A DNA stretch of 64,000 nt, from positions 32,607 through 96,606 of the forward strand of contig JALQPE010002583.1 in the NCBI GenBank assembly GCA_030407315.1. Reading direction: 5' to 3'. A program made the position numbers and the translations under genes. This document shows positions 4,525-58,102 of this stretch, one piece after another. Source of the stretch: Asparagopsis taxiformis. Its lineage: Eukaryota; Rhodophyta; Florideophyceae; Bonnemaisoniales; Bonnemaisoniaceae. Under the pieces are notes generated by a model. The model was given only the letters and a program-made list of their open reading frames with translations. It was not told where the DNA came from and searched no databases. How positions within the stretch are numbered: position 1 is the stretch's first letter; each line of letters starts with the position of its first letter.

Positions 4525-5716
4525 GTGCCAATTCTGCGCGAACCCGCTAGCCCTTGGGAGGATTCTAGTGACATGGGTACACGTCGAAACGTAGGTCGCG
4601 CCGCCCGCGAAACTACTCTCGCTGGCAAAGACTTCCTCCGCCTCTTGCTGGATTTATTCGCCCACTCAAGTTTCGCAGACTTGACGGACAAGCCGGGAGG
4701 TTTCACATACGCGGACCTTGGCGCTTGGGTTGCGCAGGGCACGGAAGAACAATTTGCGGCGCTGCAAGGTCGACTCAGCATGGCCTTCAGCGGTCGTTCG
4801 AAGAATGCTGGAGTCGAGGCGGATGTTGCCGAAATCGTCATGGCAGAGATGAACGTTGAGCGAGCCAAGCAGATTGTTCGTCTGGCATTACCCATTGCCG
4901 AGTTTTCAAGACAGGATGAGCGTATCGGGCAATGGGTTGAGCACTGCATCCTTTCTGGGATCGTGCCGCAGACCTTCCTTATTGGATGTAACATGCTTCC
5001 TTCGCCACTACAGGCGCCGCAGCGCGGGGAACCAAGCGCCTTCGTTCTTGCTCCACCGGAAACGTTCGAGGTATTGATGTATTTCCAAGCGTTGTCTATC
5101 ATCCGAAATCACAACAAGAACCTGCCGCGTCGCCGAATAGGCGACGCGGCCGAAGAGGGGAACGAAGCCGCACGCGTCCCAGCCCATCGGAAAACCACTA
5201 ATCGAGCTTGTTACGTGGTTCAAGTTTTATACCATGCTTGGACCGATGTGGCCTTCGCCGCAAAGTTTTGCTGAACAGACATTTAATGTTGGCGACGAAG
5301 TATGTGCATACTACGGAACTGTTGTGTACTCTGATATGAGCAAGGAGTCGATGAGGTTCGCGTACGGAGAGGGTCACATGGCGGTAACGAAGGAAACATT
5401 CTTGATGTATGCAATCAAGCTGTATGCAACAGCGGAGGACGACGAAAACATCGAGCATCCAATTTGGATTGTTCCGGCTCCGTTCTGTTCGGCGCAGTTC
5501 ATCAACGACCCGCGGTATTTGCGAGGTGAGGACACTCCGGCGGAAGACACCAGGCGGATGGCCAACGTCGAGTTTGTCGAGAACTACAGCAGCGGTTCGA
5601 CGGGGAAGAAGCTCAAGGCGAAGGACCTAGAAAATCCAAAGATCATTGTAGTACGTGCAATCCGCGATATACGTCCAGGGCAGGAGCTCTACGTTCATTA
5701 TGGGACAGCGTTTTAG
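4525..5716 (+). pseudogene. Transposon-borne SET-domain protein, one frameshift
   Basis: Likely a protein-lysine methyltransferase-like protein. Two frames join near 5220-5270. The first (4525-5274) is an alpha-helical region of about 230 residues that I do not recognise. The second (to 5716) contains a SET-type core: NVGDEVCAYYG near the start, then FINDPRY, then ANVEFVEN, then IRPGQELYVHYG just before the stop. In SET proteins the matching blocks are the GD/YxG strand, the NHxxxPN-like loop and the GEEL-DYG loop. The usual NHS is replaced by ND plus a later ANVEF, as in the C-terminus of the large protein at 49201-52698. The N-flank of the SET core is degenerate. It is the only gene between the inverted ends at 3946 and 6164. 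The frame break may be decay or an indel error. Confidence 0.65.
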
Positions 5717-25147: not shown

Positions 25148-25152
25148 TTACA

Positions 25153-30697: not shown

Positions 30698-30926
30698 TTA
30701 ATTTGTTCTCTACTCTGGACAGCTCATTTCTTAGTTTTAGTAGCGAAGCAAGCTTATCAATCTGATCCTGATTCAGCTCCTTCCCTTCCTTTCGACTGTT
30801 TTCCAACAATTCAATCGTTTGAAGCTTCTTCTTCAGCTTCTTAATTTTCTTTCCAGCAACCTCCACAGAGTCGATATCATCGACGCTAGTAGTTGACAGT
30901 TCGACCTTTGGCGGCACGCCATTCAT
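30681..30926 (-). CDS. Small coiled-coil protein, eIF2A/PYM-tail-like
   Basis: About 81 residues if the start is MNGVPPKVEL at 30926; the longer frame begins at 30962. The core KKIKKLKKKLQTIELLENSRKEGKELNQDQIDKL, split by charged residues, matches the helical pattern seen at the C-terminus of eIF2A and in PYM (KLKKKL-IE-L---GK-LN-DQ--K). The match is by eye only. The minus ATG at 30924-30926 overlaps the plus ATG at 30925-30927 of the DnaJ-type gene, sharing CATG, so the two genes are head-to-head. Its 3-prime end overlaps the start of the oxygenase gene by a few codons. Confidence 0.45.
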   Translation of the reverse strand: MNGVPPKVELSTTSVDDIDSVEVAGKKIKKLKKKLQTIELLENSRKEGKELNQDQIDKLASLLKLRNELSRVENKLSELSV

Positions 30927-31328: not shown

Positions 31329-31504
31329 CACAGACGGGCAAGCACCGTGGCAAATTCCAGTGCAGTGATGTAGATAATGAGCTTTACAATATATTGTACC
31401 TGCACTACACCTTGGAAGCAGCTCCCTTCTTCCTCTTCGACAACATGGATTGCTACTGCTGAAACCATAAGGGGTCCTCCATTTCCGCGCGTCTCCTCTC
31501 CTCA

Positions 31505-32976: not shown

Positions 32977-34701
32977 CTACCCAATTTCCATTGATCTAGA
33001 CCTTGTGTTTCGTGAGGTTTGTGAAGTGTTCTTCATGTCCTTCGCGCACCTCATTAATCGATCTCTTGCTAGAATAAAACAATCCCTACTCTGTTCCACA
33101 AGCGTACATGATCGTCTTGTCGCCAGACAGGCAATACCAGTAGTCATTGTACCTGCATAGGTGTCCAGGACATTCCCCCCTTCGGGAGCAAATGTAGTCA
33201 TGATCTCAGCCAACAAGAAAGGGTTTTTCTCCTCCACTCGCACGCGAGCTCTACTGCTCGGGTAGGTCAGCTTGTTCCTAACAATCGGAATATTATCAAT
33301 AACGTTGAACTTGCGTTTGTGGGAACTTCTGAGAAGACAGTACTGCGACTGGAGGTTTGCTTTAAACCCAGAAGGGTGCTGCCCGGAACATCTGCCCACA
33401 AGTGCAAAGTCTACAGCATTTTGGGGGAATGTGTTATTTCTTGTCCGTTGCAATCCAGAGCTCTCTTTGACAAAGGTCAGGGGATGTTGCATTACACACA
33501 TATCAGTTGTACGGAAAGCATTAAACCACCTGGGTAGCAAATGAAATGAAGAGAAAATGACAACATATCCACCTGGCTTAACCATTCTTCTCGTGAACTG
33601 TACAAAAGCTTCCATCTCTGCATCATCGATATAGTCCGTATAATTGGCACCTGTGTTGGAAGAGTTCGGTTTTAACATGTAGGGAGGGTCAGTAAGTACC
33701 AAGTCGAACTTGTGTTCCTCTGATACAACTGTGTTGCGGTAGTGTTGCCAGGACATTTGATAGCAACTTATGTTCTGGGATCGAAGAACGGAAATCCCAT
33801 CATTCTTTTCTGCTGCACCACCAGTATCGAGTCTCTCTGATGTTTGAGTGAGAGGCCGAGAAGTAGGATCTGCAGTGGACAGTTCTCGCATAATTTTCTC
33901 CCCGTCATCCTCATTTTCGATTGGTTCATTAGAGGAATACTTCTTTAGGCCGTCGTTTTGGCCATCTCTATGAGCACATTGAGTTTCCGGATCCTTATTA
34001 GATTGTTCTAAGCCATTTGATTCATGCGATAGTGGTCCCGCATCGCAATCTTGATTCACAACTGACTGCTTTTCACAACTAGTTTCTTTCTCTTCTGAAT
34101 TCTCTGAAGCATACGGTTGTGTTGTAGATTCAGAGGAGCTGGGTAAATTTCCAGATTTGAATGTTTGTTGAGGCTCAGCATGTCTTTGTTGATCTCTCCC
34201 GCACTTGTCCCTGTATTTCTTCATTTTCCACTTGAATTGGGATGGGAAAGAGTTCTGATATACTTTGAGTAGAGAAGGAAGTATGTCAACATCATTTCCA
34301 GAATTGCTCAAGACCTCTTCATCCAAAACTGACGTACGAAGTAGATTCTTCTTGACGACTTCCATATCTTTCGGCCATGAGTCTGATTCCAGGAAGCCTT
34401 GAAACTTCTCTGCCTCATGCCGAGCAGCCTTTGCTGCAACGGCAAGCTTTTGCATGACTGCGGCTGGAATGGTACGGAAATTGTTCTGCTTGCAGTACAT
34501 TTGCGCACGGTACAGGGAATTAATTTGATCTTCCTCAGAAGAATTCATGAATGCAGACGCCCCTTTGAGAGTATTGGTGGATATCATATCCCTGTATATT
34601 CTGCAGTCAAGAGAAGGAAATGGATTTAGTGAACGACCCTGTGTGGAAGCCTTTTGCTTCTCATACGACCTTGTTAGCTCAGGATGCTCTCCGTTTACCA
34701 A
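32977..34701 (-). CDS. DNA (adenine-N6 or cytosine-N4) methyltransferase, beta class
   Basis: A 574-residue protein. The first ~300 residues are helical, then low-complexity and acidic. The methyltransferase domain starts near 320: FDLVLTDPPYMLKPNSSNTG (catalytic DPPY near 337), then MVKPGGYVVIF, then near 495-515 ARVRVEEKNPFLLAEIM and NVLDTYAGTMTTGIACL (S-adenosylmethionine site), then CTLVEQSRDCF. The DPPY-before-SAM-motif order is the permuted beta arrangement typical of bacterial and phage N6/N4 DNA methyltransferases (N6_N4_Mtase family). The ParB-like frame lies directly upstream with only a frame change between, so they may be one ParB-methyltransferase protein. The substrate site is unknown. 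It may mark element DNA. Confidence 0.85.
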   Translation of the reverse strand: MVNGEHPELTRSYEKQKASTQGRSLNPFPSLDCRIYRDMISTNTLKGASAFMNSSEEDQINSLYRAQMYCKQNNFRTIPAAVMQKLAVAAKAARHEAEKFQGFLESDSWPKDMEVVKKNLLRTSVLDEEVLSNSGNDVDILPSLLKVYQNSFPSQFKWKMKKYRDKCGRDQQRHAEPQQTFKSGNLPSSSESTTQPYASENSEEKETSCEKQSVVNQDCDAGPLSHESNGLEQSNKDPETQCAHRDGQNDGLKKYSSNEPIENEDDGEKIMRELSTADPTSRPLTQTSERLDTGGAAEKNDGISVLRSQNISCYQMSWQHYRNTVVSEEHKFDLVLTDPPYMLKPNSSNTGANYTDYIDDAEMEAFVQFTRRMVKPGGYVVIFSSFHLLPRWFNAFRTTDMCVMQHPLTFVKESSGLQRTRNNTFPQNAVDFALVGRCSGQHPSGFKANLQSQYCLLRSSHKRKFNVIDNIPIVRNKLTYPSSRARVRVEEKNPFLLAEIMTTFAPEGGNVLDTYAGTMTTGIACLATRRSCTLVEQSRDCFILARDRLMRCAKDMKNTSQTSRNTRSRSMEIG

Positions 34702-34736
34702 CTCGCCAATCTTCTCAATGACATCCCTTGAGAGTT

Positions 34737-35462
34737 TCAGGACACACCCTGCGAGCTGTCTCTGAGTGCTAGTTGACCTTCCTGGCCCCCTGCGTAGAAA
34801 TCAGCTACTGCAGAAACGAAACCCTTGGGAAGCTTATCACCTTCTAGACATTTGTCCCGCTTCAAAGTATTAGAATCTTCATAGAGAGACTTCATAATGT
34901 CAAAGACGGTAGTTTTTATAATGTAGGACTCTTCCTGTAGAGCATTCCTAGCTCGGGCATAAGCGCGAAGCTGATCCAAGGGTGATGCTCTTATACAGAG
35001 AACTGTCCAGCTGAAGCCTGCCCATTGTTCAGGAATTTTTTTCATCAGTCTTTGGATGACTAGAAGCCGATGGAGCCCATCAACAATTCCAAACCACACA
35101 GGAAACTTTGCAAGTTCCTTCTTTGACTCCTCGATACTCATCCCACGCTCCTCAATGAGATATGATCTCGGGTAGCTGCAGAAAGCACCTTCAAGCTTAA
35201 CTACAACAGCCTTGTTCCCTGCTGCACTTAAACCTCCTTCGACGATAGCATTGTTAGCACCACCGGTGAAACTATGCTCGAGACGATCAAGGCCTGATGG
35301 AGAGACATGTCGAATTTTCGTTAGCGGAACGCAGGATCTTGGATCCACTCGAACTATTGAAGCACCTTCCTCCATTTCGCCAAATAAAGGTTGTATCTGC
35401 TTGATTTGCATCGCGGTAGTCTCCTTTGTAGGCTTTCTTCTTCCCTCAGCCTTTCGGACCAT
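34737..35462 (-). CDS. ParB-like N-terminal domain, likely fused to the methyltransferase
   Basis: A 241-residue frame starting MVRKAEGRRKP. The ParB/Srx fold motif is KFPVWFGIVDGLHRLLVIQRL (G-HR near residue 120), preceded by LTKIRHVSPSGLDRLEHSF and followed by a helix with LRAYARARNALQEESY, the position of the N-E helix in ParB proteins. It ends in GGQEGQLALRDSSQG. In the next frame the sequence continues QRQLAGCVLKLSRDVIEKIGEL into the start of the methyltransferase ORF, so a frameshift near 34760 probably split one long gene. ParB plus DNA methylase fusions are known from phages and plasmids, where ParB is a CTP- or DNA-handling domain. Confidence 0.7.
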   Translation of the reverse strand: MVRKAEGRRKPTKETTAMQIKQIQPLFGEMEEGASIVRVDPRSCVPLTKIRHVSPSGLDRLEHSFTGGANNAIVEGGLSAAGNKAVVVKLEGAFCSYPRSYLIEERGMSIEESKKELAKFPVWFGIVDGLHRLLVIQRLMKKIPEQWAGFSWTVLCIRASPLDQLRAYARARNALQEESYIIKTTVFDIMKSLYEDSNTLKRDKCLEGDKLPKGFVSAVADFYAGGQEGQLALRDSSQGVS

Positions 35463-39418: not shown

Positions 39419-39567
39419 GTGCAAGACAGACATTGAAATAAAATAGTTTAACGCAATAAGAGACTGAAGTTTTGCTCCACATGGAAGTTTTATATGTAGA
39501 TCCTTGCCGTAACTTCATGTGCTCCTTCCATTTCATTTCGCTCCCGTACATATGTTCCAATTTGCCC
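39419..39567. other. 3-prime flank of the transposase
   Basis: Short noncoding stretch up to the right inverted repeat, with AATAAAATAG near 39437 as a possible polyadenylation signal. Confidence 0.4.
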
Positions 39568-41830: not shown

Positions 41831-42217
41831 GCTCATCCTATCTGAGACAGTGCACCATGTTGGTTTCATCTGTTGTCCCAGGCAGCGTATTTCACTATCC
41901 GGCCATGTTGCCTTGGCCAATACAAAACACTATCCGCCAACACTGCCCAGTACAGTAAATTACATCATATCCAACTATTGAATAAATCATTAATTTTTAC
42001 TGTCTCCATTCACTGCCTCAGACAGTACTGTGAGACAGTGTTTTTTACTGTCTGCAGACAGTGTTCCGTACTGTCTGCCAGACAGTGCAAATCACTGTCT
42101 CCAAGTGTGGCATTAATTTTCATTTGCCGCATAGTGATTTTTACTGTCTCAGACAGTAAAAATCACTGTCTCGCAGTACTGTCTGAGGCCCCCTTTTCAA
42201 CACCGTAGTGACTGTCA

Positions 42218-43317
42218 TTGGTGCCAAATATGCGCGTAACGCCCCCGCGACGTCAGGCTATTGGCGATGGAGGACATCATATTCCCGATAGCGTGCGAGA
42301 TGGGGGGACGGTGAGGGCAGAGAGGTTGCATCCGCCGGAATCCATCGATTTAATGGCGAGTCGCATCAATGCGCAGAAGAAGAAGATCGCGGAGCTGGAA
42401 AAAAAGTGTTTAGCCAGGACATAGCAAACAAGGCGCTCACCACGGAGATAGTTGCGTTGGAGGCTAAGGTGAAGACTCTGCAGGCGGAAAATGCCAGCCT
42501 TACTGCAATTGCGAGAACAGGTAGAATCAGTGATCACGGTGGCGGTAAGTCGAAAATACAGAAAGCCATTCCTGTGAAATACCTTGGAGTTCTTAGGGCG
42601 GTTGAGGAAAACCTGACAAAGTGGTGCAAGAACGAGACTATGGAGCTGGACCCTATAGCGGAACAAACACAGAGACGTTGGACTGGACGTACCATCGAGG
42701 TAGAGCCGGTAGAAGGGACACTTTGGAGCGAAAACGGTGTAGGATATATTGCTACCCCTCCGGGCTATATCATCAAGAATCTGCAGTGGTATACACCTTC
42801 GTACAGGGACGAGAGTGATCTGCTGAATGACTTGGTGCGACACGTACTGCGTCAAAGTCCGTGGTGTGATGTGTTTTCCGATGAGGAGCAGCGTGTGTGC
42901 TGTCAAGAGGCTGTGGCGGGGAGCAAAGAATTGAAGGTGAACGTGACGCAGAAACTGTCCGACGTGATGAGTGCACGGAAGCGTAATGCGAGGGACAGAT
43001 TGTTCGGTTCGCTGGGGTACACGAAATTAATGTCTAGATGCACGATGCTGACGACGCGAGCTGAGATGGACGAGCGAGAGGATCAAAAGCGCGAAGCGTC
43101 TGAGAAGCTTTTGAAACGAGAAAGCAACGGTGATTTGGATATGGGGAGGTGGCGAACGGCACCGTTCTCAGAGCTGCGATACAGCAAAGGCATGGTTCCT
43201 GACAGCTTCGAAATGGAAGTGAATGGTGATGCATGGTTTGACAACCGAGTAACTGTGAATGTGCTGGACATCACTACGGTGTTGGGAATGGAAAAAGACA
43301 GTAAATTTACTGTCTGA
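42218..43317 (+). CDS. Element protein with N-terminal coiled coil, one frameshift
   Basis: Starts at MVPNMRVTPPR (42218). A frameshift near 42410 leads into the long frame ending at 43317. The N-terminal region is a coiled coil (RINAQKKKIAELEKK, then EIVALEAKVKTLQAENASL). The middle has a WTPSYRDESDLLNDL-type segment. The C-terminal part has VTQKLSDVMSARKRNARDRLFGSLGYTKL, which lines up with ...KSRDHVRNRFIRDLGFVLY in the gene at 44184-45459. It looks like a DNA-binding or structural element protein. No known domain is recognised. Its last codons (DITTVLG) lie inside the repeat arm. Confidence 0.6.
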
Positions 43318-43829
43318 GACAGTAAAAATTACTGTCTGGCCAAGACAGTGCGCGGAGACAGTAAAATTTACTGTCTGGAAATTTCAGAATACTGCTGCAG
43401 CAGTAAACTGGCACGAAATCTGGACAGTACCAAAAACGATAAAATTTACTGTCCAGAACAGTAAATTTTACTGTCCGGAAGTGTTGCCGCCAGACAGTAT
43501 GTGCAGACAGTACATTTTACTGTCTGAGGCAGTGCATTGTATTGTATTACTGCACTGTCTGGGTAAATCTGTAGACAGTAGTGTAGATAGCAAATTGTAT
43601 TGTCTGCGGGTAGTACCGTGCATTGGTTCACAACACTGTCTGGTGGAGTGGACTTGACAGGAAATGTGGTGCATAGTGTTGGTGTGAAGGTAAATACTGG
43701 AATGGTGTGTGGTATACGACTATAGTAATTGTGATGGTGCTTTACAGATAGTTGGGTGCAGGGAAGCTAGATGTTGAATAGGACGTAGAATGAAAGATTG
43801 GGAAGATTGAACATATCTCTTTTGTCTCA
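43271..43829 (+). repeat. Right arm of the ACTGTCT element
   Basis: Parallel copy at 6972-7522 with about 95% identity in the ACTGTCT part. It starts inside the 3-prime codons of the gene at 42218-43317. Confidence 0.8.
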
Positions 43830-44183: not shown

Positions 44184-45459
44184 ATGAATCCCGAAACCTC
44201 CGTAAGCATCGCCGCATTTTCCGAAATAACGCGTGAGGGCTTTTCGAACATCACTGCAGAGCTGAAATCCCTGAGTGATAAAATGGATGCCGTCGAGAAG
44301 AGCACCATTCAATTACGCGAGACTCTCGGAAATGTCGCCAAGACTGTCTCCATGCTAAACACCGATATGCAGGAGGTCAAGAGCATCGTCGATGGGCTTC
44401 TGAGCCAGGGACAAGGACATCCGAAGAAGATCGCCTCCGAGAAGGACAGGGAACGTCTCCGCATTGCGCAGGATGCGGAGAAATCGTTCACATTCGAAAT
44501 GGTGTGTGCTGTGTGCTGTTGTTCCAACGTACACGAAGGCAATGGTGGATAAGAGGGATAGGCATTTCAACGGATGCCAGCTAATCAATACGCTGATGTT
44601 CGCCAGGCAGAGCAATGAGCGAAAGGATGTGTTCAATAGGACGCTTGCCGGCCGGAACCACATTGAATTGCGCTGCCAAGTTGTGACCTCTTTAATCAAG
44701 AATACGTGTCAAAACAATTCTTTCAGAGAGGGAGGAGACCGTTCCAGCTCCAATGGAACGTCGGAAGGTATCGAACGGTGGAGGGCGCGGGGGTATGTGA
44801 CTACCGGGACCATTGAGGAGACAATTCGCGGAACGGACTCTGCTCGCATGGATGGAATGCATGGGACGTCCGAGGGAAGTGATGGGGCCGCTCGAAAGCA
44901 GAAGCGAAGAAAGGTTGGTGACAATGGGCCGTTGCACAGAAAGGAGGTAGGCATCACTGTGACGAAATCGGCACTGACGGCAGTGACCGGGTTTATGAAC
45001 AAGTCCAGAGATCATGTGCGAAACCGGTTCATCCGAGATCTTGGATTCGTTCTATACAGTGGGTTTCAAGGTTCAGTCCGAATGGAGCATCATTTGCACG
45101 ACGGTGGGCTGGACATTGAGTCAGTTCCAAGTCTGTACTCGGCGCAGAGGAAAATGAACGCAGCGGAGCGTGCAGCAATGGATGACAAGAATATGAAGAT
45201 TCTTCGCGACTTCATTGCAGTGCGAAAAGAAATGCTATTCAAAGTCGAGTACGAAGTTCAAATAATTGGAGAACCGGACAAGAGGTTTTTGACTAGGAGG
45301 ATCAATTTAGTAGAGGTTGCACTGAACTTTGCAGTCGCCTACACGCAATGTTCTGATAAGAACATGTTCCTGCGACGTTCAGAATACTCCTTGCAATTCA
45401 TCTACATACTTGCATACGGGTTCCGACACAGAATAAGCAATTTTTTGAAAAACCAGTAA
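44184..45459 (+). CDS. Element protein, coiled coil plus shared C-terminal region
   Basis: Starts at MNPETSVSIAAFSEITREGF (44184) with a heptad-rich helix (LKSLSDKMDAVEKSTIQL, then TVSMLNTDMQEVKSIV). A frameshift near 44500 passes into the frame to 45459. Next comes a Cys/His-rich segment (EMVCAVCCCSNVH), a basic nuclear-localisation-like KQKRRK, and SRDHVRNRFIRDLGFVLY, which aligns with the gene at 42218-43317. The last residues HRISNFLKNQ are encoded by the long inverted-repeat arm that begins at 45428. Probably a DNA-binding element protein. No catalytic motif is seen. Confidence 0.55.
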
Positions 45460-46938
45460 ATTTTATGGTCTGGACCATTAGAAATTAGTGGAATGGCAAA
45501 CCATCAAAAAAATCCCAGAAATTACCGGCGCCGTGCCATAGATAAGTAGTGGAAATACCGTAAAGAATGTAATGGAATGGAACTGCGCCGTGGGAGTGGG
45601 TGTAAGCACCGTGACAGGTGGAATTTTCCAGTACTGTACGGAAAAATAACATTGGAAAGGACAAAGACACGTCGCGTTGGTCATGACGGTGACCAGAGGT
45701 GGCATATTCCATTATTTTTGGAAATTCTATGCTGGAATGATGGAACGGCGGAACCATATGTATGACAGTACCATGATGGACTGGAACCATGATCTTTGAT
45801 GGTCACTCCAGTCTGTGCAATGGATGGCAGCCGTAGCAGTGCAAGGACGGTAGAGAGATGGACTGGTACTGACTGTTCCCATGTGATATCCACGTAGATG
45901 AAGTCACATTTTGGATGTCCATGAGGAATATGATATCATATGGAAGAGGAGAAATGCAAAGTGTATGGCTTTAACTATCCTATCTCGATATGGTCATTGT
46001 TTTATCATAGATAGGGTATGGTCGAAAGAATGGAACCATCTACATTGATTTTTAGCACAGATAATACGGCTTGGTTACTATTTTAGTCGCTAAAGTCTGT
46101 AATCAAGCCACTCCCCTATACACGGGATTGACCCGAATAGTGATTTTCACCCTGGCTTTAAGCGTTAGTAGTAACATAAACGCAGTAGTAGTGTAGTTGA
46201 CAACTTTTGTGGCAGTGGGGAACATTGTAGTGATTTCGTATCATACGGTAAAAATGCAAAATTGGACGTTACGGATATGGGTGAGTAGTATTGAAGAAGT
46301 CAACGAAGACTTTTCCTGAACAGAATTGCAAATTGTGGGCTCTAGTATCTTTATTTGGTGGAGGAACTATGACCAGGCGGGAATCATTGCGAATTAGGCG
46401 CCAAAGCGAAAAAGCAATAGCGTGTCGGGAGCGTGAACGAGCTGCAGCTGTTGATGCACTTCCGTCTGTCGGCACCCAAATAGAGGTATGGTTCCAGGTG
46501 GGGGACGACTCAATGTGGTGGAAGGCTGTGGTAGTGGAAATGAAACTTCCCGAGCAGTATCCTATTTGCTCGGGTAAACCATCAGTGGGTGACCGCATCG
46601 ATGTGGACAGAGGAGATGGCGTGTACACGCCCGGAGTGGTGGAGCAGCAGGGTCAGGATTTGGATACTGCAATTGTGAAGTTGGTGACGGAGGAAAAGGA
46701 TATTGCAGTAACGGAAGTGTCAAAGTGGCGGTATTCGGATTCTGTGAAGCCAAGGCATGATGAAATAGTGGTTGCAGAAGGCAGATTGTTATACGATGCA
46801 ATTCCTGAAAGGAATTACCCTTGCGTCTCCTATGAACACGTAAAATTTGTGCTGGGAAGTAAGTTAATGTCCGGGGGTCAGCCACCAACACCGTGGCGAA
46901 GGAGCAACAGAGAGGTTGTGGACTACGAAGCGGTGGGA
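45428..46938. repeat. Right arm of the long inverted repeat (partner 1-1563)
   Basis: Homologous in reverse to 1-1563. Homology is visible to 46938, where the left copy meets the window edge, and it probably continues. It contains the gene at 46369-47172. Confidence 0.75.
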
Positions 46939-47172
46939 GTAGAACATCATGTCGAATCGGATGGTGAATCTGAAGCGATGTCCCCGCAAAAGAAGAAGCC
47001 AAAAGTGGAATCGGTACTTGATTCCAACACATACAGTGGCATGGAGAAGAGGCTGAGAACACTAGAAAGTATTATTCTTTCTGGAAGTGGTGGCGATCAT
47101 CGGATGGTTTACGATGGGAAAGTTCCAATAGAACCTGCACTCACGTCCACTGGACCGGTTCTATATACCTAG
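46369..47172 (+). CDS. Arm-borne protein, intact copy
   Basis: About 267 residues from MTRRESLRIRRQSEK. I prefer this ATG to the one at 46291 because the other arm (1-567) conserves it and has a stop just upstream. The N-terminus is basic. Next come WFQVGDDSMWWKAVVVEM and VGDRIDVDRGDGVYTPGVVE with D-D-AIVKL, two short beta-rich blocks resembling tandem Tudor/agenet-like repeats by eye. A conserved-looking middle (EVSKWRYSDSVKPRHDEIVV) precedes a basic nuclear-localisation-like QKKKPK and a coiled-coil C-terminus (MEKRLRTLESIIL). It may be a chromatin-binding or element-maintenance protein. No enzyme motif. Confidence 0.6.
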   Translation: MTRRESLRIRRQSEKAIACRERERAAAVDALPSVGTQIEVWFQVGDDSMWWKAVVVEMKLPEQYPICSGKPSVGDRIDVDRGDGVYTPGVVEQQGQDLDTAIVKLVTEEKDIAVTEVSKWRYSDSVKPRHDEIVVAEGRLLYDAIPERNYPCVSYEHVKFVLGSKLMSGGQPPTPWRRSNREVVDYEAVGVEHHVESDGESEAMSPQKKKPKVESVLDSNTYSGMEKRLRTLESIILSGSGGDHRMVYDGKVPIEPALTSTGPVLYT

Positions 47173-47612
47173 AAGGCAATCACCCCCCATGAGGTAGTCA
47201 CGGAGGTCGATGTGACCCCATGTAACACGCAGAGGGAAACCATCATTCCCGAAATTACCGGTAGGCGCCATTGTAAGGGCTGTGGTGAATAACCCGTGCA
47301 GGCAAATTGCAATGCGATAACATGCCTGAATTGAATGGGGTTCGTGACAGAGCATCTCGAGTTGTGTACATTGGCAGAAACTACACAACAATATCATAGC
47401 TAATGTAAGAAAAGAAAAAGAACAGACGGCCAATCTCTCAACCGGGGCCTTTGTACCTGCATTGCAGGAGCCGTCTACGGCGCCGCTAACCTGAACTTTG
47501 TAAGTAACCTGAATGTGAAGCTCAGGTCGACTCAAAATAAAATCCGAGAAGATATCATCATTTTTGGAATAGACAGCTTGAGACTCATCCCCTGTGCCGT
47601 AAGCTTTCGAAG
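47173..47612. other. Intergenic, no gene seen
   Basis: Short frames on both strands without recognisable content. Confidence 0.4.
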
Positions 47613-48734
47613 TTATCGGAATTTTTCAGATGGACACATATCCAATGCAGAAATGTCATTGTCAGGCGAAAGAGAAACTTTAGCCTGCATATCTCGATGG
47701 ATGAGGAAGAATGCATGTTTGACTAATTCCATTTTCATCTGCTTCCGGGAAGTATTGAAAAACTGTGTGAGCTGCCGCAGTGCCGAAGTAACGATCGGAA
47801 TGGACTGTAAGTCCGAAGGAGAAAGATTAGATACACAAGAAGACGAAGATGAGGAAGAACCAGTACGGCGCTGTTCTCCTTTAGAACCCGAGAGTCGGTG
47901 ACGTTTCGAATAATTGATTGGTAGAGTTGTGGACTGTGGCGCAGGTCGATCTGTTTCCGTTGGCATCGAAATATCCATGGCATGGAAAAGAGCCCGCTGC
48001 GAAATCTGCAACCAAGCAGGCTTATTGATTGGCACGATGGTTGCATTGCGAAGTGCGTAGTCACGAGAAATGGTATTGCTGTTCAGGTCATCCTCCTCCC
48101 CAGGGTCAAGGGTACCAGAATTCCTCGTCGCCGAATCCTTCCATCGCACAATTCTGTCATTTGCCATAGAAATAAACGCAGTTCCGACAATAGCACGTTT
48201 CAGGAACACATGCTTTTTCCCTACAGCTGTTCCAATTAGGGATTTCTTGGACTGCCTGACCTCAGAATTAGAACTGGATGTCTGAGAGAAGGAAAGGGAA
48301 GCCAGAAGCAAAGTAGTGCAGGAATCTTCATTTGAACACGGTACAGATGTTGCACAGAACGAGTTTGGGGTAACAGAGGTTTTGATGAACTCTGCAATGG
48401 TTCGAAACGCGACGAACCTGGATGTCACAAGTCTGTTGTTGAAAAGAGAGGACACCAGAGTGGTAACTTGTGCTGATTTTCTTGAACGCTCTTCCAGAAC
48501 CACAGGTGGAACAACGTTTGTACCAGCTGCAGCAGAGGCCATATACCGAATGCAGGCTAGTTCCATTTGAACAGATGAAAGAGAATCGCGGAGGTACTGT
48601 TCAAGGTAGGCAAATCGTTCCTCGAACTGCGCAAACCTGGTTAAGGATAGTTCGTCTCTCATGTCAGCCTGGAATAAGGAGATCTTCACAGATATGTTTC
48701 GTAACGTCAGAGCTACTGGGATGAGGTATTCCAA
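47613..48734 (-). CDS. Hypothetical element protein, 373 aa
   Basis: Open frame starting MEYLIPVALTLRN. It has a helical N-terminal part (FAQFEERFAYLEQYLRDSL), a Ser-rich middle and a basic segment KRHRLSGSKGEQRR before a poly-Ser run. The C-terminus has LRQLTQFFNTSRKQMKMEL. The coiled-coil, Ser-rich and basic layout is like other element proteins here (42218, 44184). No domain is recognised. It is on the same strand as the MTase-SET gene and next to it. Confidence 0.45.
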   Translation of the reverse strand: MEYLIPVALTLRNISVKISLFQADMRDELSLTRFAQFEERFAYLEQYLRDSLSSVQMELACIRYMASAAAGTNVVPPVVLEERSRKSAQVTTLVSSLFNNRLVTSRFVAFRTIAEFIKTSVTPNSFCATSVPCSNEDSCTTLLLASLSFSQTSSSNSEVRQSKKSLIGTAVGKKHVFLKRAIVGTAFISMANDRIVRWKDSATRNSGTLDPGEEDDLNSNTISRDYALRNATIVPINKPAWLQISQRALFHAMDISMPTETDRPAPQSTTLPINYSKRHRLSGSKGEQRRTGSSSSSSSCVSNLSPSDLQSIPIVTSALRQLTQFFNTSRKQMKMELVKHAFFLIHRDMQAKVSLSPDNDISALDMCPSEKFR

Positions 48735-49200
48735 GATGAAGAGTTATCCAGTAGAATGGTGGTAAAGGTAATTTAAGTTCGGAACTTGTACGTTTATTGA
48801 AGAAGGGAAGGAAAGGGGAGAGATCGAAACGTTACAAATGCTACGTGTTGTAACCGACCTATTCAATTTGTAGAAGTAGGAAGAGATAAAGGAAGCTGTG
48901 GAACCGTTACGAATGCACCGTGCCGTAACGGTCGTAGATCTAAATAAATGGTGTGGTACAATAACTGTTTAAATTATGCTTAATTTCGGACGGGAAAATT
49001 ACTCGAGTAAAAGAGATCTAGACCTGAACATTAGGTAGATCAGGTCCTCGTCCTGTTCACGGGAAAGAAATGCACCTAATCATCGCGGATGTTAGAGGGA
49101 ATGAGGAGATAGAACATACTTTGCCTATTTTACTATTTGCGGGGTAATGGGAAGCAGGGAGAACATGATGTAGGTGTGAAAAACGCCAATGCGTTCCTGT
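48735..49200. other. End region with TTACTCGAGTAA
   Basis: No gene. At 48999-49010 TTACTCGAGTAA followed by AAGAGATCTAG matches the end code of the hairpins at 53249 and 57999. A small inverted pair GACCTGA/TCAGGTC surrounds 49020-49045. It is a plausible left end of the composite. Confidence 0.5.
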
Positions 49201-52200
49201 TTAAACTGAGAAGTAGTCATTACCATATTCTATGAACAGCTCGGAGCCAGCAGAGATCGGCACGTTGGCAGTAACACAGACAACTTGATAGTTTGAGACA
49301 GTATTCTCGTCGAGGAGCTCTTGAACGGGAGACGAGAAACTAACGTTAGCTGCGCGTGAAGGACGTTCAGTTCCCTCAGCTGGATCCACAAAGTTGGGGT
49401 CATTGATTTTCGAAGCGACACAGTACTCGAAAGGGACGACAAATATGGGGCTTCCAGAAGTAGAAGGAAGCAAACAAGATATATTCGAATCCTTGATTTG
49501 AAGAGCGTAGCTTCTGAAGCGCTCCACGGTAAATGCTGTGGGACCTGTTCCAAACGTCTTGCCTTTTGATTTATAGAGATCTCTGTAAACCAATGAACCG
49601 AAATAAAATCCAACAATGTCACCAGGGTCGATCTGGCCTCTGGCAAAAAGACCGTCACCAGCCCCCGGAATAGTTGAGGGCGCGACGTACACGTTGTGTG
49701 CCATGGCATCAATGGAAAGCAGAAGATTGTTGTCAATGGTGGACAGCATGTCGAGAAGTGATTGAGGCCATTTGTGAACTGGAAGGTCGCCCAGTTGTTT
49801 GTATTGGTCTGGGATACCCCACATGCTAGTAAGGAAACTGACGAGGTGGGGCGGAAGTCGCGTAGCAACTGGCAAACCTGAGGTAGGCTTTGAAACCGTA
49901 CCCTCCTCGGAAACCGGTAGATGTGATGAGGCGAGTTGTTGTAGCGAAGGATTGGAGAGCTGAGCAAAATTACAAATTGCTACTTGACGCAGAAATGCAG
50001 TATGAACTCTCGGAAGAGATAATTCAAAGCAATCTTTGTACTTTTCACAACCGACAAACCGCCTATACTGACCGTGGCGCATGTTAAGGCAAGCGACTGC
50101 AGTGGAGAATGTTCCGGCGAACAAGTCGACAACCAAATCTCCCTGGTGTGAAAATCGCCCAATTAGTTCCTGCAACAAACCAACGAGCTTCTGCTCCGGG
50201 CGCAGTACCTTGTTCTTCTGTTCCGTTTGGTCGAAATATTTGACAGTCTCTGAAGGCGATATCCTTGGAATGTTGTCGATAATATTTGTCCATGCTCGGA
50301 ATCTGGTTGGGATGTAACCGGCATTTTTATAGTTCACCATCGCCCATCCTTTTCTTCCCTTTCCGAGCTTTGTAGCATGTACAACCAGCTCAGACATATT
50401 CATTAAACTGGTCGTAAATCTATATGGCGGAGAAGTGAAATGCGTTGGGCTCCGAATACAGAAGATAGGCTGTGAATCAACTGAAAACATGGGAGTGTTC
50501 GTAGAAGTCTTGACCTTTCGGAGTTCGTAAACCCAGTTGTAGAAAAGGGCAGCAGATGTGAAGATGAGAACATGACCACCCTGTCGTGTTACCTTTGCGA
50601 TAGTTGCCACTGTGTCCACGATTTCTTGTTGGCGGAGAATGTCATACGCTGAATTCTCTCTCCCAGCTGTTCGTCTCGAATTATACGGTGGATCTGTGAG
50701 AACCAATTGGGCACCCTCTACAAGCTCCGGTTTTGCAGGAATATCAATGCGTTCATAGGTCTCAAGAAGATCTCTGAAACTGCAATTGATTGTGTGTAGG
50801 CAAGAAGCCTTCATGTTTTGTAGGTTTGCTGGAATTGAAACAGGGTCTCCGAGACGCATAGATTCGATGTCTAAGGACTCGGCAGTACTTGTGTCTGATG
50901 GCCTTCTATGAGCGCTCACCGGCTCAGAAGTGCGAGCTGACTTTGCAGGAACATCAGTTTCATTACTGTTGTCCAGTCGCTTCCGTTTGACACCTGTATC
51001 CGTGTTTTGTTCTATGGATGGTGACGCAGGAACGGGAGCGAAAGATGTATCAGCTTCTCCAAAAAGCTCCTCGTTTGGTTCAGGAGTCGATTGTGGTAGT
51101 TCAGAGTTTCTGAAGGCCGTGAGCTGCCTCTCGACGTTTTGAAGGCCAGGAATAGAAGTGAACCTCCCAGAATCAGTTTCTATAGAATCTTCCTGTGCTT
51201 CGAATGCGCAAAGAAACGCGTTTTGTTTCGGAGAAGAAACGGTCTGGTCAAATAGTTTTCGATCCTTAGTAATATCTGTAATGTGTGCCCAGAAGGAGGA
51301 GGCGCAGAGGCGCATCTGAGCGTCTTGGAGGACGGAGCGATGAACTGCTCGATGGGATATACTTTTGGCATGCTGCAACTTTCGCACGGCCCCTCTGCCA
51401 TGCAATAACGTCTTTAGCTCTCGAAGAGGAGAGAACCCCCTTTCCTCTGAGTCTAGCACATGGTACTTGAACATGCGCTGATCATAAAGAAGATAAGGTT
51501 GGAGAAGTTCCTCGGCCGTTGAAACATCCAGTGCACGAGCCAGTGTATCCCATGCCTTCACGACCACATGAATAGCGTAGCCGAGGCGCTGAGCGGAAGC
51601 AGGAGATTCCTTTCTGATCAATACAGTTCGATTAGACGAGGACCTTGTTCTCGGCCTCACCGGGGTGGCTTTTAAATCTCTTTCCATTTGTAGCATAGCC
51701 ATGAGAAATATAATCTTCTCGAAAGCGGAAGAAACTCTTGGAGTAGCCCAGTTTCCATGGTCCGTAGTTCGTAGCTGGGTATGCGCAACAAAGAATTGGC
51801 AAGCCAGAGTCTGCCGCACGAATGATTCACGACCAATTGAAGACCGAGACGCCGTGTGCACTGAGTGGAAATACTGTGCAACGGGAAGAGGTTCCGAACC
51901 TTGGCTGTGGAGGCTTTGGCTGGATGGTAACTTTGTGGTTGTTCTGTGCTCTTCTACAACGAACACTGGCGTGAAGAGAGACATTGATAAGTCTTGTAAG
52001 GAACAACTGGTCAGGAACATATCCCAAACCCTCGTGTCTACGTCGTTAGACCCCTCATCGCATTCCGAAGACGAGAAAGTGCGGAGGGACTGGACGATAT
52101 TGAAGGTATGACGATGGTAGGCCTTCCCAAACCAATCTTCCATGACAGCGACTGCCGCAGGCGGAAGCTTTGATTGGAACATGGCCTTGACAGCAGCTCG

Positions 52201-52698
52201 AAATCCTGGGAGGGTGCGATGTGCAAGGGGAACGTTATCCTCATTCCTCTCCCGATCATGCCAGTAGTCACGAAGGTATGCAAGTATGGCAACTGATTCA
52301 GTGAAGGGAACCCGTCTTTCTCTCCTGAGGATGTGATAAACAATAGAGATCAGTGTGTGTGGCTCTGAAGAGATAGACTCGTAGCTCATGCGTACTAAAA
52401 ACCGTGAAGTTTTCGTGCGGGGGCGCGACCAGATCTCCTCACAGACGTCCATGCCTCCGACAAGGGTGACATCACCATTTTCAGTGATAGATCCGTAAAG
52501 ATGGAGTGCATCAAAGTCCAGAGACACTCGGGAAGAAATGTCTGAAGCTGCAGTACCAAAACCTTCAATTGCTGGTATAGAAACAACACGAGCTGGATCT
52601 ACCCATATGATAGTTCCGTCTCCATACAAGTCCCCTGGATTGGTGGGGCCACGCTCGCTTGCAGAGATAACAGCCCCATGTTTCATTGTATCAACCAT
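49201..52698 (-). CDS. DNA methyltransferase-SET domain fusion protein, 1165 aa
   Basis: One uninterrupted frame. Residues 1-600 form an N-terminal helical region without a recognised domain plus an acidic linker. Near 655-700 is a beta-class DNA methyltransferase: GAQLVLTDPPYNSRRT (DPPY near 667), then VTRQGGHVLIFTSAALFYNW. Near 840-870 is DLVVDLFAGTFSTAVACL (SAM motif) with VGCEKYKDCF. A linker follows. The SET domain fills 1000-1165: VAPSTIPGAGDGLFARGQ, DIVGFYFGSLVYRD, SKINDPNF, RAANVSF and ISAGSELFIEYGNDYF just before the stop. The NHxxxPN loop is again altered to ND plus AANVSF, as in the SET gene at 4525-5716. A protein joining DNA and histone methylation is unusual. It lies between the end code at 48999 and the hairpin at 53249. 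Confidence 0.88.
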   Translation of the reverse strand: MVDTMKHGAVISASERGPTNPGDLYGDGTIIWVDPARVVSIPAIEGFGTAASDISSRVSLDFDALHLYGSITENGDVTLVGGMDVCEEIWSRPRTKTSRFLVRMSYESISSEPHTLISIVYHILRRERRVPFTESVAILAYLRDYWHDRERNEDNVPLAHRTLPGFRAAVKAMFQSKLPPAAVAVMEDWFGKAYHRHTFNIVQSLRTFSSSECDEGSNDVDTRVWDMFLTSCSLQDLSMSLFTPVFVVEEHRTTTKLPSSQSLHSQGSEPLPVAQYFHSVHTASRSSIGRESFVRQTLACQFFVAHTQLRTTDHGNWATPRVSSAFEKIIFLMAMLQMERDLKATPVRPRTRSSSNRTVLIRKESPASAQRLGYAIHVVVKAWDTLARALDVSTAEELLQPYLLYDQRMFKYHVLDSEERGFSPLRELKTLLHGRGAVRKLQHAKSISHRAVHRSVLQDAQMRLCASSFWAHITDITKDRKLFDQTVSSPKQNAFLCAFEAQEDSIETDSGRFTSIPGLQNVERQLTAFRNSELPQSTPEPNEELFGEADTSFAPVPASPSIEQNTDTGVKRKRLDNSNETDVPAKSARTSEPVSAHRRPSDTSTAESLDIESMRLGDPVSIPANLQNMKASCLHTINCSFRDLLETYERIDIPAKPELVEGAQLVLTDPPYNSRRTAGRENSAYDILRQQEIVDTVATIAKVTRQGGHVLIFTSAALFYNWVYELRKVKTSTNTPMFSVDSQPIFCIRSPTHFTSPPYRFTTSLMNMSELVVHATKLGKGRKGWAMVNYKNAGYIPTRFRAWTNIIDNIPRISPSETVKYFDQTEQKNKVLRPEQKLVGLLQELIGRFSHQGDLVVDLFAGTFSTAVACLNMRHGQYRRFVGCEKYKDCFELSLPRVHTAFLRQVAICNFAQLSNPSLQQLASSHLPVSEEGTVSKPTSGLPVATRLPPHLVSFLTSMWGIPDQYKQLGDLPVHKWPQSLLDMLSTIDNNLLLSIDAMAHNVYVAPSTIPGAGDGLFARGQIDPGDIVGFYFGSLVYRDLYKSKGKTFGTGPTAFTVERFRSYALQIKDSNISCLLPSTSGSPIFVVPFEYCVASKINDPNFVDPAEGTERPSRAANVSFSSPVQELLDENTVSNYQVVCVTANVPISAGSELFIEYGNDYFSV

Positions 52699-53126
52699 CG
52701 CGCCTTGAATATAGCAATAGAAGAGGAAAAGAAGGCAGAATCCGAAATGAGGTCGATGGGTCGGTGGCAGCGGAGGTGCTGGTAAGAAAAGGACCGCAAA
52801 TTTGAAATCGTAATTTGTGCATTCCTCGGAACAATCTGTAAAGTGCTATGGAGAGGTCGCGAGGACATGCATGTCAGCACCTGACATTACAAGGGTTGTC
52901 CATGAAACTATGAGAATCCGAACTGAACGGTTGGAAGTATCGTATTAGTGAAATCGGGGTCTACTGCGGAGGACTCTAAGCTGGCTAATACACTGCTTCC
53001 ACCAGTTCACACCTCATTCACTGTCTATGCGAAATACAATTTTCGTGGAAGACATCCCACACCCTTCTAGAACGGTTCTCATGATATTAATACCGGAGCG
53101 GATCGATGGAATTGAGCGTGAAGGGC
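52699..53126. other. Promoter side of the fusion gene, no gene seen
   Basis: Short noncoding stretch upstream of the MTase-SET gene, up to the palindromes. Confidence 0.4.
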
Positions 53127-53205
53127 GCACGTCTCGAATTATAGCGCTATAATTCGAGACGTGCCACTTGTGGTAAATTGCGCGCGCAATTTCCCACAAG
53201 TGGCA
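53127..53205. repeat. 38-bp perfect palindrome followed by a 44-bp near-perfect one
   Basis: 53127-53164 is fully self-complementary (centre TAGCGCTA, flanks CGTCTCGAATTA). It overlaps 53162-53205, arms TGCCACTTGTGG and CCACAAGTGGCA around AAATTGCGCGCGCAATTT. Confidence 0.92.
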
Positions 53206-53248
53206 TGGGTGGGACAGCAGCGAACGAACGCGAACAGGCGATTTCGGA

Positions 53249-53381
53249 GATGATAAATTTTGGTAATTTTTCGGGCTCCAAAAATTACTCGAGTAAAAAC
53301 TGATCTAGTCTTTGTCGGGAGCTAGATCAGTTTTTACTCGAGTAATTTTTGGAGCCCGAAAAATTACCAAAATTTATCATC
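53249..53381. repeat. Perfect 60-bp-arm hairpin, left end
   Basis: Arms 53249-53308 and 53322-53381 are exact complements over all 60 bases, with a 13-base loop. The arm includes GGGCTCCAAAAATTACTCGA and AACTGATCTAG. It is one of the most perfect inverted repeats in the window. Confidence 0.95.
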
Positions 53382-53922
53382 GACGGAAAAGGCGCTGTGG
53401 AGGTGTTCTGGTCGTAGGGAGCAGTGCCAAGGCACACCTGAGAACCGTTATATCTAACGAGAACAAAAAGATACTGCACTTCAGCACTGCGCGGAAAAGG
53501 TAGGTAGGAGAAATAAAAGGGTGTGAGGCTCAATAAACGGTTCGTGTAGCTGCATTCAGCACATGTCTGAAGAACATTGACTAACTGGAACAAGTCATGA
53601 ATGGTTCAGGACTACTTCCGTTGTATTAATACTTGCTGAGATAGAGTCAGTTTCCATTTCTTCTTTTCTTATTGATAATATACGAGTCATGAAAGGTGTA
53701 TGTAGTTCGGTAACTTTTCGAGATTGCAAAATTACCGAAATTAACATTTTTATTCGAACTGGCGCTATGACCGTTTATTCGATTCAGGTTGGACCATGCG
53801 CCAATAGAAACCGCTCGCGCGGTCTGAATTTTTACGCACAGTTTTGGTGTCCTTCCAGTTGGACAAATTTGTTGTTAATACATTGTCCCTCGCTGGCTAG
53901 CTGATTAGTACTCCCCTGCTAC

Positions 53923-56900
53923 TTGAAAGGCATACCGCGTTACTCTGGTACCGTTTCAATCGTCAGCTATTCGACCCTCCTTGCGATCCCAACCATGAGC
54001 CTACGTCCCCGCCGAGGGGAAGCTTCTTCCAGCGCACGTCAACTAGTCATTCCTGCGATGTCACGCTCCGTTGCTTCTTCGTTGTCGAATTACGTTTTCA
54101 AGATGATCAAGTTGCCTATTCTGGACATATACGTCCCCGATGAAACATCCCGGGAAGTTGACGACTCTCATGTTGACTTGTTGTTCCGCAAGATGGTTAT
54201 GGAAGGCTTCCAGACCTCTGCGGTGGGATGTATCACTGTTGTTTCCCTACCCTACCAATCCAGTGGAAGCCGCTATTACATCGTGGACGGACTCCATCGT
54301 CGCCGTGCTCTTTACGATGCAAAGAAAAAGGGTGGAACGTTTGGCGTCTGTGGTTGACAATGTCCCAGTACAAGAAGCTCAAAGACCTGACGGAGAAAAG
54401 ATGACAATGGAGGACATGCTGTACCTCAGTCAGCGTTTGAATGAACTCGTCCACACGGTGTTACCGACCACAGTTCGAGATCGTATCCACGCGATCATTA
54501 GCATTTATAACTGCAATGTTAAATATGCCCGACCCGGTGAAAGAACTGTCGCTGATATGCCTGCATCACAGGTTGCGAACTGGTTCTTCCAGCGCCACTT
54601 CAGCGGTATTCTGAAGAAGAGCACGGTATCTTCTATAGTGAATGTGGCGTTGAACATGAGGCGTTCACCCCGCACATACGCTGCGTACAAGGCTTGCTCA
54701 GGAAGAAAGGAAAACGAAGTTGGAATCAGTCTTTTAATTCTCAAGGACACTGCTTTTACAAGGGCGGAGGATCGTGCCAGTGAGCTAATGGTCAGTGCAT
54801 TCACTACCGCAATGTCCAACTGCTTCCCACCTTCGGTCGTGTCCCGTCTTTCGACCTTCGGACGTACTTGACCTACATTCAACAATATTACGAAGTCATT
54901 CGTGAGATGGCACGTGCCAGTAACCTGTCGACCGAAGACATCGCTGACCTCGAAGACTTGGAATCAGACGGAACGGATATGATACCAACGTGGAAATCCG
55001 TCTACAAACGTATGATTCAATACGAGGAAGAGCCCGTGCCGAGGAAACCCGAAAACCAGGAGGCACGGCTGGAGAGTTTTCGATCCGTTCTTCGAGACCG
55101 CTTTGGAATTCAGTCCACTCGCCAGGTTTCATCCGAATCACACGGCCCGGATGAAGAAGAAGACGGCAATGGAGAAAACAAGGGGTTCAAGACAAGCGCC
55201 AAGGTGGCGAACCAGTCACTCAAGCTATTATGCAAGCTTCGCAGTCGACTGGTGCTGCTCAACCAGCGACGAAGACTACGGGTGCTTCGAGACATGAACG
55301 TCGTTTAACCCAATTCGAAGACGTTATCATGGAACCTCTCCCAATCCCCATCTCTTCTGATGACGTCGTTATCGACGAGACCGTCGAGGAACTACCGTCC
55401 ACTCCCCATCAAAACAGGTGATACCCGAAACCAGCGCTGGGTCGGATGACGACATGGAGATTTCCAAGGATGCACCTGAGGAGGATGCACCTGAAAAGGA
55501 TGCACCTGAAAAGGATGCAGATTCTCCACATCCCGAGCAACTGGGCTCCGAGGACGAGAACCGTTCTGAACCACCCGACGCGCATTCCACTCCCTCTTCA
55601 CGGAATGAAATTGGTGCGGATGGTGCGGAAGATGGCACAGAAGTTCAGAAAGCTCCGGATTCAGCGTCGAAGGGAGCAAGTAAGACTGTATCTAACATCA
55701 CAGTCAGCCGCATACCGCGTGACAGTACTACTCCACGCCCGTTTCCATGCTCTTTGGGAGATTACTGCGCTTTTCCTGGAAGTGCCGCTGTTCATAAATG
55801 CACCGCTTGCGGAATTAATCCGGTTCACAATCTATGTGACTATGCGCGAGTGCATCATCTCATCCCAAGGAAGTACCTCGCTGCAGGGGAGCGTGATATG
55901 GTCTTCGTTTGTTCCAGGAAATGTTACGATGGTGGGAAAGATGGTGACCCACCATCTTGGAAGCCGCCAGCGGGAGTAACGGAACAGGAAGCCTGGGAAG
56001 GGGATGACTTCAACCCATATGCGAAGGCCAGTTCCAGTACTGATTCGGTGGAAAAACCTCAGCAGCCCTCTGAACCCGCTCCTCAACAGACGGGGGCGAA
56101 GAGGAAATTTCCTTCTTCTCCAGGAGCTCCACCGCGAAGCGGCGAGCTATATCATCCCCCAATCTCTCTCTTTCCCTTCCCGTCTTACTCGTTCAAAGGC
56201 TAGATCTGCTGCTATTGCTGAGCACATCGCGTCACTTGATTCCCCATCTACTCCTTCGGTTACTCCTCGGTCTGCCTCTGGAACAAAGAAGACGAAGAAA
56301 GCAGCAATTGCTTTAAAGCAAGTCAAGCAAGGTAATGATGAGGGAGGAAGCATGGACGGCAATGAAGACTCCGGAGAAGAAAAAGAAGACGAGGATCAAA
56401 TCACTCCTACGAGGTTGCAATCCAAAGGTTTCAAAGTACATCGGTACGAGGATCAGCAGCCTGAGCCCCCATCATTTTTCACCAGTCATACTTCTGTAGA
56501 GGAGGCTGCTTCAATGGTGCGTTCCATTTCCAGTTTGCTGCATCCGGAACACCGCTCGGGATTTCATGTAACGGAGGGTGAGGTGGAAGAGTTTCAGCAG
56601 GATATAGAGTCCGTGGCAGGGGATACAAGTTCTTCAAGATTGGTTTACTTCGAGCGTGCCAGGGCCCGATTGGACTCTCTTGGTTATGTCGTCCTTGACG
56701 GCATCCTACAACCATCCGAGCTCAGCTCTACTATCCACAAACTCCTCGACTCGTTTTGTAACATGTTCGTAGATGGGCAGGATGGTGCTTGGGGGCCCAT
56801 TCTGAATTCGGGTTCTTCCGACCAGGATGCGCGTGGTGGCCCGGATGAACAAAGGTTCATGACCCCATGCAAGGCTGTAGTGGAAGATCTGGAAAAGGAT

Positions 56901-57607
56901 TCTACTTCCACTCTCGCGAGAGACAAGGCGGCCTTGGATGTTTTCTTTGCTATCATAGCAGAAAAGTTGCATCTAGAGGATTCAACTCCGTCTCTGGACG
57001 GATTTGAAAAAGGCCCGAAGCTCCAGTTCGGGAAGACAGGGCTCAGGTTGCTTCTAACTGGATCTCGTTGCGAGCGCCAAGTCCCACATCTCGACTTCGT
57101 CTACCCTGGTCCTCCGTTAGAAGACGAAAACCGCTTCAACGGGACTCCTATTCCATTTCCGGATTATTCATTCATCGCTACTGGTGCAATGGGCACTCCG
57201 CTTATTGTACGGCCGCGAAGCCATGCATTCCTTAACGCTCCCCATCGATCTGCAGCGGCCATATTTCCCCTTCTCAAGCCAGAATTGGTATGGATCCCAC
57301 CGTATTCTGTTATAGTATGTCGTGGGACCTCGAGCACAGCGGCCCGGGATGGAAAGATCACGAGCTGATGAAAACCAAGCTTGGGAAGAAATACAAGATG
57401 GTTTATCCTCATCATATTAGGGCCCACACCATGGCAATTCGGGAAACATCGGTCTTAGTCAACGATCTAGTCTATGCACCGTTGAAGGACTCGCGTCCGT
57501 CGCAAGGCTCAGTCCAGTATGTACGACCCCACGACGTCGAGAGTGATACCAGCTCTTCTTCAGCTGGCAGTTCTGGGAGGATTACATGGAAGTCTAGAAT
57601 CTGTTAG
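53923..57607 (+). pseudogene. ParB-like / PHD-like / 2OG-Fe(II) dioxygenase chain, broken by frameshifts
   Basis: Adjacent frames give one continuous protein of about 1200 codons with about six frame changes (near 54340, 54850, 55220, 55420, 56180, 57330). Order: ParB/Srx-like YYIVDGLHRRRALYDAKKK with a YLSQRLNELVH helix. Next is a helical part and an acidic repeat (tandem DAPEKDAPEK). A Cys/His finger follows, CSLGDYCAFPG, KCTACGINPVHNLC, then VCSRKC, of PHD type. A Ser-rich linker leads to a dioxygenase with RQVPHLDFVYPG (HxD) and VIVCRG. After a one-base shift, DLEHSGPGW (distal His) and HHIRAHTMAIR (2OG Arg) complete the triad. In the family the HxD...H set binds Fe(II). The layout suggests a DNA- or chromatin-modifying oxygenase. 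It is either decayed or hit by indel errors. Confidence 0.7.
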
Positions 57608-57998
57608 TTACCCGTAGACATTAGTTGATCTCTCGTATTTCAACGATTCTGTTGCTTGCTGCAACCAGTTGACTATTCCATAACTCTACGATATGTCTTC
57701 ATAAACCGTCTCTTTTTTCATTCTATACATCAACTCTCCCAGCCAACCTGAGCTGAACAAACAGAGCGTGATATTGAAATATACCTGTCCTGTCCCTTCC
57801 TCCATGTACACCTCCCTTCTCGTAGATACTTGTCTAGCTTTTAGTTACAGTTACAGTTCTATCATCTTTTAAAGCAGAGTAGAAGTAGGCTAGAACAAAG
57901 GTTTGGGACCTCTCATACTACTCCTCAGGTGTGCCTTGGCACTGCTACCAACGACCAGAACACCTCCACAGCGCCTTTTCCGTGGATGATAAAATTTG

Positions 57999-58102
57999 GT
58001 AATTTTGCGGGCTCCAAAAATTACTCGAGTAAAACTGATCTAGCTCCCGACAAAGACTAGATCAGTTTTTACTCGAGTAATTTTTGGAGCCCGAAAAATT
58101 AC
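57999..58102. repeat. Hairpin, right end
   Basis: Same hairpin sequence as 53249-53381 with small differences (TTTTGCGGGC against CCCGAAAAA, and one A lost in GTAAAACTG). Inner neighbours mirror 53382-53444. Confidence 0.9.

Follow-up and report, generated by a model that had tools for sequence, protein, structure and literature searches.

A predicted DNA amino-methyltransferase and a predicted SET domain share one open reading frame among mobile elements of the red alga Asparagopsis taxiformis

Can a single gene encode both an enzyme that marks DNA and an enzyme that marks chromatin proteins, and does such a gene belong to a mobile element? The question is raised by a reverse-strand frame in a stretch of 64,000 nucleotides of Asparagopsis taxiformis (contig JALQPE010002583.1, positions 32,607 to 96,606); we call the whole stretch the window, and all coordinates are given within it. 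In the initial annotation this frame was described as a DNA methyltransferase fused to a SET domain and placed on a transposon-like unit. The gene and its two recognizable domains are as follows.

49201..52698, minus strand: methylase-SET fusion gene, 1165 amino acids; N-terminal region 1 to ~620, predicted beta-class DNA methyltransferase ~625-910, predicted SET domain 1014-1159
50020..50709, minus strand: N6_N4_Mtase domain (PF01555), residues 664-893, with DPPY at 669-672 and DLFAG at 858-862
49222..49659, minus strand: SET domain (PF00856), residues 1014-1159

The joining of the two domains in one open frame is confirmed. The frame runs from ATG to TAA through 1165 codons with zero internal stops; given the window's own stop frequency, 1.7e-16 runs of this length are expected by chance. 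Codon use in the three parts of the protein (residues 1-630, 631-905 and 906-1165) correlates at 0.47-0.61, while the two shifted frames of the same DNA correlate with these parts at 0.07-0.27. The profile check that had been proposed for both domains, done as a Pfam search, found N6_N4_Mtase and SET each above its cut-off and both within the unbroken frame, just as had been claimed.

The PF01555 match to residues 664-893 scored 48.4 bits against a curated cut-off of 26.7 (E-value 1.5e-12). The catalytic DPPY (669-672) precedes the S-adenosylmethionine (SAM) motif (858-866, with DLFAG at 858-862); both lie a few residues from where the initial annotation had put them (near 667 and 856). The order DPPY before SAM motif is that of the beta class. 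The methylase part models well and the model fits bacterial N6-adenine enzymes; RsrI, which is titled beta class, appears among the structures matched by the full fusion-protein model, in a comparison that covers residues 627-905 only. The family match and the motif order bear out the earlier assignment to a beta-class enzyme of phage or bacterial type. As the motif is DPPY, methylation at N6 of adenine is most likely. Judged from its motifs and profile match, the domain is most likely a beta-class DNA amino-methyltransferase of phage or bacterial descent with N6-adenine as its target.

The C-terminal SET domain that had been claimed was also found, by a smaller margin: the PF00856 match (E-value 7.2e-5) covers positions 1-105 of the 105 in the profile and scored 23.6 bits against a cut-off of 22.4. 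Its motif places are GAGDG at 1012, YFGS at 1032, IND at 1098-1100 and GSELFIEYG at 1151. A second SET frame of the window, at 5141-5713, is 33% identical to it over 160 positions (E-value 6e-18). When the two sequences were combined in a two-row profile and compared with PDB chains, weak matches to KMT5A, EZH2, LegAS4 and SETD7 were obtained (best E-value 1.3e-4), nearly all of them without one stretch that passes alone. We treat the SET domain as real and regard it as a putative lysine methyltransferase.

We now turn to the setting of the gene, for which the following features are needed.

48970..49043: diverged palindromic end copy left of the fusion gene, with TTACTCGAGTAA at 48999
53249..53381: palindrome of 133 bases, 91.7% self-complementary, loop included; possible right end of the fusion unit
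53263..58102: neighbour element; its inverted ends of 180 bases are 96.7% alike and both contain the TTACTCGAGTAA palindrome
28383-40958: inverted-repeat element with a second methylase; 1399-base inverted repeats, 99.7% alike, CTTC on both flanks
32980..34800, minus strand: second beta-class DNA methyltransferase frame (Pfam E-value 2.1e-11), on element 28383-40958
5141..5713, plus strand: second SET frame (Pfam SET E-value 2.1e-5), on element 3945-6158

The sequence TTACTCGAGTAA occurs exactly at 48999, 53285, 53334, 58021 and 58069. An 'end code' at 48999 and 53249 had been taken to point to a mobile source, and the sequence is real at both places; related end sequences lie on both sides of the gene, although they are not clean ends of one element. 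When one strand of the window was scanned in tiles, the left copy came out as the third distinct place by score (23, at the 99th percentile of the tiles). Mobility of the fusion unit is better backed, indirectly, by the fact that relatives of both its domains sit on better-bounded elements of the window. From this context the fusion gene is likely to be on a mobile unit, possibly a non-autonomous element.

The methylase of the fusion protein is 24% identical to the second methylase of the window (E-value 3e-15). Further relatives comprise 27 bacterial loci and 30 loci from viral contigs. We built a tree of 40 rows, made of the two window methylases and 38 of these 57 loci; the other 19 were omitted because they nearly duplicated another locus or because their motif region was unusual or incomplete. 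A branch with support 98/97, recovered in 97% of 200 bootstrap trees, sets the two window methylases apart from all other rows; both sit on long branches, so that long-branch attraction could aid their pairing. For the SET pair, the search in viral contigs gave 0 of 89 candidate stretches; for the whole fusion protein, viral contigs gave 0 of 3 and genome contigs 0 of 31, and 80% coverage was reached in none of the best 15 of 212 phage records or the best 8 of 26 plasmid records.

The explanation that we favour, with moderate confidence, is that of a mobile-element-associated gene, carried by an element or captured adjacent to one, which encodes in one protein a methylase of phage or bacterial type and a SET domain as a paired writer. 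The gene would be carried by, or have been captured beside, a eukaryotic mobile element; both domains would be active, and the long N-terminal part may guide the protein. Its DNA target would be adenines in the element or at the insertion site, and at the same place the protein would also methylate a lysine on a nearby chromatin protein. Such paired marks could set the chromatin state for copying or expression of the element, which might be kept expressible or be held quiet; the sequence does not tell the direction. To judge by its domain content, a protein of this layout could place marks on DNA and on chromatin proteins together. As a rule the two kinds of methylation, of DNA and of lysine, are coupled through distinct enzymes, each recognizing the mark left by the other; a single chain holding both writers would, if true, make the coupling covalent and open to test in vitro.

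Several observations, given here and in the two paragraphs that follow, weigh against this explanation. Residues 1-620 gave no Pfam match above cut-off (PPP1R35_C was seen below it at residues 436-560, E-value 0.033) and their structure model is of low confidence. Comparison of residues 1-299 with PDB chains produced nothing better than an E-value of 0.42, and profile comparison of the N-terminus (1-260/1-299) with ParB yielded no match. As for activity of the methylase, its SAM loop reads GTF where most other rows of the alignment have GSG; one bacterial row, L055, likewise lacks the second G. Neither CpG depletion nor GATC enrichment, possible traces of self-methylation, was seen in the fusion unit, a result that neither supports nor tests N6-methyladenine. 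A ParB-like N-terminus was considered on its own account and rejected: to the eye there is a likeness between residues 28-140 and the ParB-like frames of the other elements, but shuffled alignments of residues 1-260 gave z of 0.2-0.7 and the profile comparison likewise showed nothing.

The SET score is 1.2 bits over the cut-off, AlphaFold2 run on the SET part with two sequences gave a mean pLDDT (predicted local distance difference test) of 31, and IND replaces the usual NH both here and in the second SET frame. Most SET domains carry NH in the SAM pocket; some active SET enzymes do so without the H, and for this reason membership in the SET family by profile stands. One could nevertheless propose that only the DNA methylase works, with SET a degenerate or structural remnant, and that the protein amounts to an adenine methylase associated with a transposon, much like those known from DIRS elements. 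The barely sufficient SET score, the IND in place of NH and the far higher score and good model of the methylase would all fit such a proposal. We consider it unlikely, though it fares best among the alternatives: the second SET of the window has the same IND and its 33% identity over 160 positions is as in a kept family, and the fusion protein retains an intact GSELFIEYG end motif.

The ends of the unit raise a different doubt, as they do not form a clean matched pair. The left end copy is diverged from 53254-53330 (71% over 77 columns, E-value 6e-8, in a comparison with two short targets only), and the palindrome at 53249-53381 doubles as the left end of the neighbour element; inspection of the flanks of that element showed no target-site duplication. 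No transposase family was found by Pfam scan of eight chosen frames at 44464-57368, nor was there a Harbinger or MuDR transposase, a reverse transcriptase or a tyrosine recombinase among them. The claim of a mobile source is supported in part, by related end sequences on both sides. Ends that pair poorly, of which the right one belongs to the next element, and the lack of a transposase in the frames scanned are what one would expect if the frame were a gene of the host, or one that settled there long ago, lying between elements, with the end-like sequences at its flanks left by other insertions; that a long intact frame adjoins broken element genes is also in line with a host gene. Yet relatives of both domains are found on other elements of the window and the gene extends over 3.5 kb without need for an intron, and we regard a host gene as rather improbable.

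It is very unlikely that the frame arose by chance read-through of two element genes that were once separate, or that an error of assembly deleted a stop or frame break between them. Other element genes of the window are indeed broken (at several places in 53923-57368, and by one TAG at 32977-32979), and the C-terminal part shows the lowest agreement in codon use with the other parts (0.47-0.49). Against this, the stretch separating the two Pfam matches is open for some 120 residues, and the reading frame is intact over all 3498 bases.

Taking the paired-writer gene together with the other elements, one may speculate further about a family of elements built on a phage-derived adenine-methylase core, which would swap chromatin modules on and around that core and have a DNA-and-histone code of its own, written by one protein. 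We offer this suggestion tentatively and think it rather less probable than not. The module sets behind it are methylase-SET (the fusion gene), a methylase with a Cys-rich frame after it and a 2-oxoglutarate (2OG) oxygenase encoded separately (element 28383-40958), SET alone (element 3945-6158) and a ParB-like frame with a Cys-rich frame (element 53263-58102).

Element 28383-40958 encodes, besides the second methylase, a 2OG-Fe(II) oxygenase (E-value 1.6e-14), two DUF7869 frames (E-values 8.5e-35 and 3.1e-4, the latter below its cut-off) and a frame at 34740-35516 that has a DGLHR motif and is ParB-like on weak evidence; this frame gave no match in Pfam, PHROG, NCBIfam or phage searches. The in-frame TAG at 32977-32979 splits the second methylase from the downstream Cys-rich frame, which is finger-like by eye. 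In element 53263-58102 there is a ParB-like frame (so called on weak evidence) that is interrupted by frame changes, together with a Cys-rich frame and others that lack a Pfam match; its frames at 53923-57368 are broken in several places. For both 34740-35516 and 53923-54357 the ParB-like label was given for the DGLHR motif and weak scores. A Cys/His finger pattern was seen at 55748 in the same element. Element 3945-6158 has 184-base inverted ends, 94% alike, and its flanks on inspection showed no target-site duplication; two more copies of its end repeat are situated at ~2245-2430 and 2632-2804.

An LTR (long terminal repeat) retrotransposon at 12574-18523 has a chromodomain, LTRs 99.5% identical and a TCATG duplication; with the SET frames, it gives the window its eukaryotic character. 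An NB-ARC frame is present at 10210-10740 (E-value 5.2e-7), followed by further open frames up to 12451. The repeat at 1-1567 recurs in inverted orientation at 45424-46936 (83%) and contains a frame in which 'WWKA.VVE...VGDRIDVDRGDGVYTPGVV' is conserved; by eye this frame looks Tudor/agenet-like, and the one copy scanned had no Pfam match. Palindromic repeats of the type CAGACAGTAAA...TTTACTGTCTG are clustered at 42008-43561 around a frame of 341 amino acids with no Pfam match, and a direct repeat links 6972-7521 with 43272-43818 (93% alike, 553 columns). Short inverted and direct repeats are densely packed at 20793-25187. Neither tRNA genes (ARAGORN, bacterial code) nor Rfam matches were found in the window.

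How does the fusion protein compare with known systems? The initial annotation knew of no described protein of this layout; our full-text literature searches aimed at a PF01555 domain and SET in one chain agree in having found none, which is a weak absence. PF01555 enzymes appear to be rare in eukaryotes: the bdelloid rotifer enzyme N4CMT is described, in the text available to us, as having no eukaryotic homologs (PMC8885841), and no PF01555 match is reported for three proteomes in the excerpts of PMC12344493. N4CMT itself combines a PF01555 methylase with a chromodomain in one protein. It has SPPY, a domain that reads rather than writes and the status of a settled host gene (PMC8885841, from the same text), while the present protein has DPPY, SET and a mobile setting. 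Phage and bacterial ParB-methylase proteins (PMC5512222) belong, by our own scan, to the same methylase family PF01555. They differ in carrying an N-terminal ParB domain, of which none was detected in residues 1-299 of the fusion protein; among our methylase relatives, four picked from the 57 loci for a ParB-like start all matched ParB_N, three of them above cut-off.

Adenine and cytosine methylases carried by transposons are both on record (excerpts of PMC5890265, PMC3266345 and PMC6338049). DIRS1-like retrotransposons, mobile elements of eukaryotes with a gene for a bacterial-like adenine methylase, resemble the likely mobile fusion unit in this; but they have a reverse transcriptase and a tyrosine recombinase, neither of which is among the eight frames scanned here, and the parts consulted of PMC3266345 and PMC5890265 describe no SET for them. 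SymbioLINE-Dnmt, SymbioDIRS-Dnmt3 and KnitGypsy-Dnmt3 are likewise transposons encoding a DNA methylase, suggested to methylate their own copied DNA, but their enzymes act on C5 of cytosine and are structurally unrelated to adenine methylases (PMC5890265, as excerpted). On the SET side, the HarbingerS and MuDR transposons of Phytophthora share with the fusion unit the SET gene, carried there by DNA transposons; they differ in that the passages available from PMC12730594 mention no DNA methylase for them, and in that the eight frames here contain no Harbinger or MuDR transposase. The parts of the fusion protein are of known kinds, and their union in one frame is seemingly new, as far as a weak absence can suggest. 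TET/JBP and SET genes have been reported as gathered by mobile elements (same passages of PMC12730594); the methylase-SET fusion, if true, would add to the mobile elements that collect chromatin-writing or chromatin-erasing tools.
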